DNA of 36,875 bases from contig JAPDJQ010000023.1 of NCBI GenBank assembly GCA_029259015.1, positions 1-36,875 of the forward strand, in the 5' to 3' direction. Shown here in pieces: positions 8,840-25,772 of the stretch; positions within the stretch are counted from its first letter, which is position 1; each line of letters starts with the position of its first letter. The notes beneath the pieces were generated by a model. The model saw only the letters and a list, made by a program, of their open reading frames with translations, searched no databases and was not told where the DNA came from. This DNA is from Thermoplasmatota archaeon. Lineage in GTDB: Archaea; Thermoplasmatota; E2; UBA202; JdFR-43. The position numbers were made by a program, and so were the translations under genes.

Positions 8840-8863
8840 AAGTTAATGGCTGCATTTTACATG

Positions 8864-8938
8864 CGGGCGCGGCGGGATTCGAACCCGCGACTGCTGGCTT
8901 AGAAGGCCAGCGCCCTATCCAGGCTAGGCCACGCGCCC
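8864..8938 (-). tRNA. tRNA-Arg(TCT), no intron
   Basis: Minus strand: gggcgcg tg gcctagcctggatagggc g ctggc CTTCTAA gccag cagtc gcggg ttcgaat cccgc cgcgccc; full cloverleaf. Confidence 0.95.
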
Positions 8939-24800: not shown

Positions 24801-25235
24801 TTTTCTTCCAGCTTCCTCCTCCAGAACCTCCCTTGAAATATTGCATTTCTGAGACCTAACCATTATCGGAAGATGACCTATTTTTGCTTCTTCTGCCAAA
24901 TCATCTCTCACCTTGCCATCTATTACAGGAATAAATTCAAGAAAGACAGGCGCCTCATATGTTAAGTCTCTTAGCCTTGCTTCCATTGGTGTTATTGGAT
25001 GCTCCTCGCCTGTTGCTTCTTTCACCATCGGCTTTCCTACTCTTATTTTGCCCAGCTTGACTTTATATCCCTCTATCTCTGGATGTATGTATCCTCTTTC
25101 CAGTCCCTCGCCTTCTCCTATCCTTGTTGAATTTACTATGTTCTGCAGCCTTCTGTTCAGGAAATCGTTATAGGATGCTATTTGATGATTTACTATACTC
25201 CTCTCCCTATAAAATGCGTCTATTACTTCTCTCAT
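21861..25235 (-). CDS. rpoB: DNA-directed RNA polymerase subunit B (unsplit)
   Basis: Single 1124 aa [52 protein letters not shown]-terminal CENCGH...CLLCG. Confidence 0.97.
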
Positions 25236-25474
25236 ATTATCTCCTTACTCACAACACGATAAGCGACACTTATACCAGCAGTAGGACTTTTCCTTATTAT
25301 TTTAATTACATCTCCCTCCTTCGCATTTATGGCTTTTGCCACAGGGTCATCAATGCGGATGCGAGGGAGTTGTTCTTTTTTAATATTATATGTTTTGAGC
25401 AGTTTTTCAACTTCCTCTTCTGATAAAATCTCATGATGCGGCACGAGCTCATGCTTTAGTATATCTATCTTCAT
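25232..25474 (-). CDS. rpoH: DNA-directed RNA polymerase subunit H
   Basis: [21 protein letters not shown]...[40 protein letters not shown]. Confidence 0.95.
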
Positions 25475-25523: not shown

Positions 25524-25627
25524 CGGGCCTGAGGGGATTTTCTAGCTGCTTGCCTCGCAAGCAGGCATTCGAACCCCTGGCCACCTGGTTAAAAGCCAGG
25601 TGCTCTACCTAGCTGAGCTACAGGCCC
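25524..25627 (-). tRNA. tRNA-Lys(TTT) interrupted in the T-loop by an apparent intron (25538-25567)
   Basis: Minus strand: gggcctg ta gctc agctaggta gagc a cctgg CTTTTAA ccagg tggcc agggg ttcgaa [30 nt] t cccct caggccc g; removing the 30 nt restores a perfect T-arm and acceptor stem. Confidence 0.9.
25538..25567 (-). other. Putative noncanonical tRNA intron between positions 59 and 60 (30 nt)
   Basis: Intron tgcctgcttgcgaggcaagcagctagaaaa; perfect 8-bp inner stem CTGCTTGC-GAG-GCAAGCAG; AAU at both junctions; UUCG/AGAA central helix (3 bp plus G-A) giving a relaxed bulge-helix-bulge. Confidence 0.8.
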
Positions 25628-25772
25628 TTCCCCACTGTTGCATATACCGCCCAATATAAATTTTTTTCTATTAAAGTATGGAAATTTGGCATAATATTAA
25701 ACTTATATAAAATGCGATATCTGGCGATAACTATTTAAAATTCGTTTATATAATATTTTCGGAGGCATAAAA

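Follow-up and report, generated by a model that had tools for sequence, protein, structure and literature searches.

The tRNA-Lys(UUU) gene of a 36,875-nt stretch of Thermoplasmatota DNA (hereafter the window) is interrupted in its T-loop by a 30-nt insert, which we regard, with a probability of about 0.93, as a protein-spliced archaeal intron at position 59/60, predicted to be cut by EndA at a UUCR/YGAA BHB motif, joined by RtcB and spread between tRNA isotypes. The window corresponds to contig 7 of an approximately 86% complete genome of 1.41 Mb. Sequence comparisons identify the insert as a putative archaeal BHB intron rather than an oddity of one gene.

The gene lies on the minus strand at 25627-25524 and measures 104 nt unspliced and 74 nt without the insert. 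It reads GGGCCTG TA GCTC AGCTAGGTAGA GCAC CTGG CTTTTAA CCAG GTGGCC and continues AGGGG TTCGAA (tgcctgcttgcgaggcaagcagctagaaaa) T CCCCT CAGGCCC G, with the anticodon UUU at 25593-25591 and the discriminator G at 25524. The 5' exon (positions 1-59, 25568..25627) ends in UUCGAA, the intron (UGCCUGCUUGCGAGGCAAGCAGCUAGAAAA) occupies 25567-25538, and the 3' exon (position 60 to the discriminator, U CCCCU CAGGCCC G) follows at 25524..25537. Excision of the 30 nt restores a 74-nt cloverleaf with the T-arm junction UUCGAAUCCCC, and the spliced sequence was called in silico as a full 74-nt tRNA-Lys, bearing out the original prediction of a T-loop intron at this site. The hairpin CUGCUUGC-GAG-GCAAGCAG within the intron (helix h', 25546..25564) has the perfect 8-bp stem, CTGCTTGC/GCAAGCAG, that had also been described. 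Both junctions read AA|U as previously noted, forming the 5' bulge (25567..25569) and the 3' bulge (25537..25539), each with a predicted cut after base 2. As AAU stands on both sides, several excision registers yield the same product; of these, BHB geometry selects cleavage just past base 2 of the bulge.

Some 30 nt upstream of the gene is a TATA-like element, TTTATATT (25653..25660, minus strand), which by its sequence is a likely promoter. Archaeal tRNA promoters are located upstream of the gene, so a T-loop insert should leave transcription unharmed; in eukaryotic tRNA genes, such an insert would split the internal B box. Downstream on the same strand is a conserved neighbour (25232..25474) encoding an 80-aa RpoH-like protein, part of an rpoH-rpoB-rpoA series, which we take to be RpoH from a reading of its sequence.

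In the proposed mechanism, the T-stem would be retained in the precursor as the outer helix, and UUCR of the T-loop would pair with YGAA near the intron 3' end, giving a 4-bp central helix and two 3-nt bulges. EndA, as an alpha'2 homodimer, would cut after base 2 of each bulge and RtcB would ligate the halves to UUCRAAU. Because UUCRAA^UCC is near-identical in every tRNA, any insert ending in YGAAAA would create a splice site there, so that introns could pass from isotype to isotype at 59/60; this spread would have taken place in the host's order of Thermoplasmatota. We infer cutting and ligation in the cell, as well as the route of spread, from sequence.

The sister species has its tRNA-Lys gene interrupted at the same position, the outcome of a comparison proposed with the original prediction, and across the host's order the insert lies at the identical base in 18 of the 21 tRNA-Lys(UUU) genes read directly (G021 included). 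These orthologues combine near-identical exons with divergent inserts of 13-34 nt. The exons are identical in the window genome (G000) and two genomes of the same genus (G001 and G002), whereas in a further member, G003, 9 of the 30 insert positions differ from the window copy. Exact intronless tRNA-Lys genes were found in G009, G014 and G016, all from one genus of the family, of which another member (G013) has the intron. In other families of the class, tRNA-Lys is intronless; the Lys-RpoH neighbourhood is kept in the case checked (L031), and conservation of the RpoH-like neighbour marks the locus as orthologous. Scanning GTDB genomes showed tRNA-Lys to carry an intron at 59/60 in Methanomassiliicoccales and halophilic Thermoplasmatota as well. 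The pattern used gave 65 matches, from which a few were excluded (for example, L119, L124, L144, L149, L158 and L159), these being intronless genes matched through a chance downstream ATCCC. In Methanomassiliicoccales and related lineages, tRNA-Lys(UUU) often shows an apparent second insert in the D-arm (L113, L118, L122 and L297, among others).

Introns at 59/60 are present in at least eight of the about 33 tRNA genes detected in the window genome, namely Lys(TTT), His(GTG), Ala(CGC), Arg(CCT), Arg(TCG), Leu(TAG), Thr(CGT) and Cys(GCA). The tRNA-Lys case had been recognized originally, and at least seven further genes with the same kind of intron had been missed. They were identified by pattern and covariance-model searches, which make the tRNA census a lower bound. 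The pattern matched seven times in the window genome and its reversed version not once which, together with the insert at the same position in the sister species, argues against chance in tRNA-Lys. A covariance model (R1) trained on 28 introns from the host's order found at least one match in all 22 genomes of that order, with up to 10 per genome, and none in other genomes of the class outside it. Beyond the class, it matched 25 genomes of the phylum, most of them a single time; some of the pattern and model matches outside the order (for example, in G311, G093, G272 and G295) may be chance. The window tRNA-Lys intron, itself part of the training set, scored 55.7 bits (E 1.6e-9). We read 87 introns of the order, covering 24 tRNA identities (both lower bounds, with four Lys and other entries read by hand). 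Isotypes were likewise assigned by hand for the two-intron genes L210, L215, L249, L250, L253 and L235, for which automatic calls were wrong, and for L223, L064, L231 and L241. Canonical 37/38 introns also occur in the window genome, for example, in Met(CAT) and Thr(CGT). The latter gene (L210, on C41 of G000) has two introns, in the anticodon loop and in the T-loop, and gave no match to the Rfam tRNA model at E 0.1.

Standard finders mishandle such genes, as had been anticipated for tRNA-Lys. On the unspliced gene, ARAGORN built the T-arm into the insert and reported a 68-nt gene, and the Rfam tRNA model scored 38.0 bits over model positions 7-64 only, again with a mis-built T-arm. Among five T-loop-intron genes tested, ARAGORN missed four and mis-modelled the fifth, and weak Rfam matches in the window genome proved to be tRNA genes interrupted in the T-loop. 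Misses of this kind by common finders explain too-low tRNA counts in genomes of the group.

Across the group, the BHB has the T-stem outside, with UUCR of the T-loop paired to YGAA near the intron 3' end and bulges of AA|N (5') and AA|U (3'). The first two bases of the 5' bulge are AA in 102 of 105 unique introns, and 92 of the 105 end in AA as parsed. The constancy of the GAAAA 3' end is partly a product of search selection, since some of the introns were retrieved by a pattern demanding GAAAA; intron position -6 and the Lys set are free of this effect. Most relatives have CGAA or UGAA as the 3' strand of the central helix, making four pairs. Within the order, A57 is accompanied by U at intron base -6 in 30 of 31 introns, while among the 56 introns with G57 the partner is C in 33, A in 18 and U in 5 (Fisher p 5e-17 over 87 introns, not corrected for relatedness and thus overstated). 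Switches of position 57 within orthologues are independent of this p value: the central helix of Ala(CGC) is UUCA/UGAA in the window genome and UUCG/CGAA in G004 and G011, and both sides of the helix also switch together, in the opposite direction, among Arg(CCT) orthologues. Pairing in helix h' reached 65% of the positions tested, compared with 42% (sd 2) when intron halves were swapped among introns, and the excess appeared only in the expected register. A structure count on the alignment agreed: 90.3% of cells were paired, and covariation was 0.464 as against 0.03-0.08 for slid versions.

The window copy has a weaker form of this motif. Its 5' strand, T-loop U54 U55 C56 G57 (25570..25573), belongs to the pairing and covariation seen group-wide, and faces AGAA in the intron (25540..25543), giving three Watson-Crick pairs with G-A as the last central pair. 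The original description of a relaxed UUCG/AGAA helix holds for this copy, with its one G-A mismatch, but not for the group, in which the mismatch occurs in 18 of the 56 G57 introns of the order. On sequence comparison, the G-A form, window copy included, is a minority variant of a near-canonical motif, and the AGAA variants would presumably still be cut by EndA.

These details bear on the possibility that the intron has a relaxed BHB and needs a broad-specificity endonuclease as in Thermoproteales, as the original prediction had supposed in arguing that the host enzyme should tolerate relaxed motifs. The three-pair central helix fits that proposal: it is open in the predicted fold of the pre-tRNA (minimum energy -20.8 kcal/mol, against -19.2 kcal/mol for the three-pair BHB), and G-A recurs at the same pair in several relatives. 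In most relatives, however, all 4 bp of the central helix are intact and the bulges measure 3 nt, as in the same-genus G003 copy, whose predicted fold is a textbook BHB. The enzyme itself also speaks against it. The window genome encodes one EndA, a single 345-aa open frame that contains two PF01974 repeats; its second repeat conserves the Tyr/His/Lys triad in alignment with A. fulgidus EndA, and the nearest sequences are the Methanopyrus EndA-like protein and Archaeoglobus alpha'2 enzymes. No insertion at the CSL site was found in the aligned EndA proteins of the order relative to wild-type A. fulgidus EndA and the CSL chimaera 3p1y, and none corresponding to the ASL, judged from the range aligned with 4fz2 alone. 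By sequence, this EndA is thus of the 'narrow' alpha'2 type and a predicted homodimer. The literature attributes efficient cleavage of relaxed motifs to (alpha-beta)2 and epsilon2 enzymes bearing specific loops, and regards alpha'2 enzymes as narrow (PMC6379350, PMC12397907). The architecture check suggested originally thus turned up an enzyme that is not of the broad-specificity type. With a near-canonical 3-4-3 motif in the group and an alpha'2 EndA lacking CSL- or ASL-like insertions, a relaxed-tolerant enzyme is not required, and we consider this explanation unlikely. The T-loop introns are compatible with a narrow enzyme, being near-canonical in geometry though not in position. A full-length RtcB ligase (E 1.6e-185) is also encoded in the window genome.

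Far less probable is that the insert is kept, producing a tRNA with an enlarged T-arm, or that the gene is a dead copy. The stable hairpin could suit a retained element, but the exons stay conserved against inserts that vary in both sequence and length, orthologues lacking the intron match base for base, and the covariation of position 57 with the intron is what a splice helix requires. This is moreover the only Lys(UUU) gene detected in the window genome; a second, uninterrupted copy, which had been named as evidence that would count against the intron, was not found in the approximately 86% complete assembly. We give still less credence to an att-type scar left by an element integrating at the tRNA 3' end. 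Although tRNA 3' ends are common integrase targets and G004 has an apparent 22-kb duplication of the 3' half of tRNA-Arg(CCT), intron included, that case copies a pre-existing intron, and neither recurrence at one and the same base across 24 tRNA identities nor a BHB covarying with the host T-loop would be expected of a scar. A self-splicing group I intron was rejected, as the insert is 30 nt long and an Rfam search of the locus gave no match besides tRNA. Assembly error was discarded given the agreement of independent metagenome bins, and a pseudogene was considered and dropped.

In support of the preferred reading of a spliced intron spread between isotypes, several introns are shared by different tRNA genes. 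Those of Thr(CGT) and Ala(CGC) are identical at 33 of 34 positions in the window genome, and those of Gly(TCC) and Arg(CCT) at 45 of 45 in G013. A core, TGCAACTTG...CAAGTTGC, recurs in Cys, Glu, Lys(CTT), Arg, Ser, Gln and His genes. Near-identical introns in different isotypes suggest that introns have probably moved between tRNA genes, and the simplest reading is that they were copied at a site with the same flanks everywhere. The copying may have proceeded through recombination or through reverse splicing followed by reverse transcription. T-loop introns of 45-50 nt (L278-L292) contain two copies of CAAGTTGC and the 30-nt forms one, from which we infer that the latter arose by deletion between the repeats. 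We think it reasonably likely that the T-loop has served as a reusable landing site, with YGAAAA introns copied between isotypes to about ten per genome under a strict alpha'2 EndA. If so, the accepted rule tying non-canonical intron positions to a broad-specificity EndA would concern motif geometry and not position.

In G004, the full tRNA-Arg(CCT) gene with its T-loop intron (L222, C4:16831) is accompanied 22 kb away by a copy of its 3' half with an identical intron (L223, C4:38846). The arrangement resembles the termini of an integrated element, which would mean that T-loop introns do not prevent integration.

A single 59/60 intron is of a kind already known in other archaea: the position has been catalogued among the non-canonical intron sites of archaea (PMC4090602), and similar introns in different tRNA species of Thermoproteales have been read as evidence of intron transposition (PMC4033280). 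The introns described here resemble the non-canonical introns of Crenarchaeota and Thermoproteales in being short, EndA-excised (predicted here) and similar across tRNAs, with 59/60 among the listed positions and some genes holding more than one (PMC4090602, PMC4033280). They differ in that one position dominates, the BHB is near-canonical and the host is euryarchaeal, with an alpha'2 EndA in place of the (alpha-beta)2 enzyme with CSL of Thermoproteales. Geometry (3-4-3) and enzyme class are instead those of canonical 37/38 introns in Euryarchaeota, which have alpha4 or alpha'2 EndA. Euryarchaeal tRNAs are described as having one intron at the canonical position (PMC4090602), in agreement with the original remark that a T-loop intron is unusual there, whereas many T-loop introns and two-intron tRNAs coexist here. 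Euryarchaeal alpha4 and alpha2 EndA are considered strict for the canonical position, and unusual positions have been tied to broad-specificity endonucleases (PMC4090602, PMC4033280). Korarchaeum cryptofilum likewise combines a homodimeric (alpha2) EndA with introns at non-canonical positions, but its enzyme is described with a specific loop (PMC4033280), which the EndA studied here lacks. The Asgard lineages Atabeyarchaeia and Freyarchaeia also carry a heavy load of non-canonical introns outside Thermoproteales, in 92-95% of tRNA genes and at various positions, in contrast to the T-loop-focused set of Thermoplasmatota (PMC11291895).

We found no report of T-loop introns in the host's order in the open-licence literature searched, and what appears new is the expansion at 59/60 in Thermoplasmatota under an alpha'2 EndA without a specific loop. 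This one-site expansion is at odds with the published view that euryarchaeal tRNAs contain a single intron at the canonical position (PMC4090602). It also offers a second large case of intron movement between tRNA genes, at a single site with flanks shared by all tRNAs. Having a strict-type enzyme together with many near-canonical T-loop introns, the system makes position and motif separable in a direct test. Intron content also varies at a second tRNA locus of the window: tRNA-Arg(TCT) (8863-8938, minus strand) is uninterrupted, and T-loop introns are present in the corresponding genes of G008, G013, G017 and G019.
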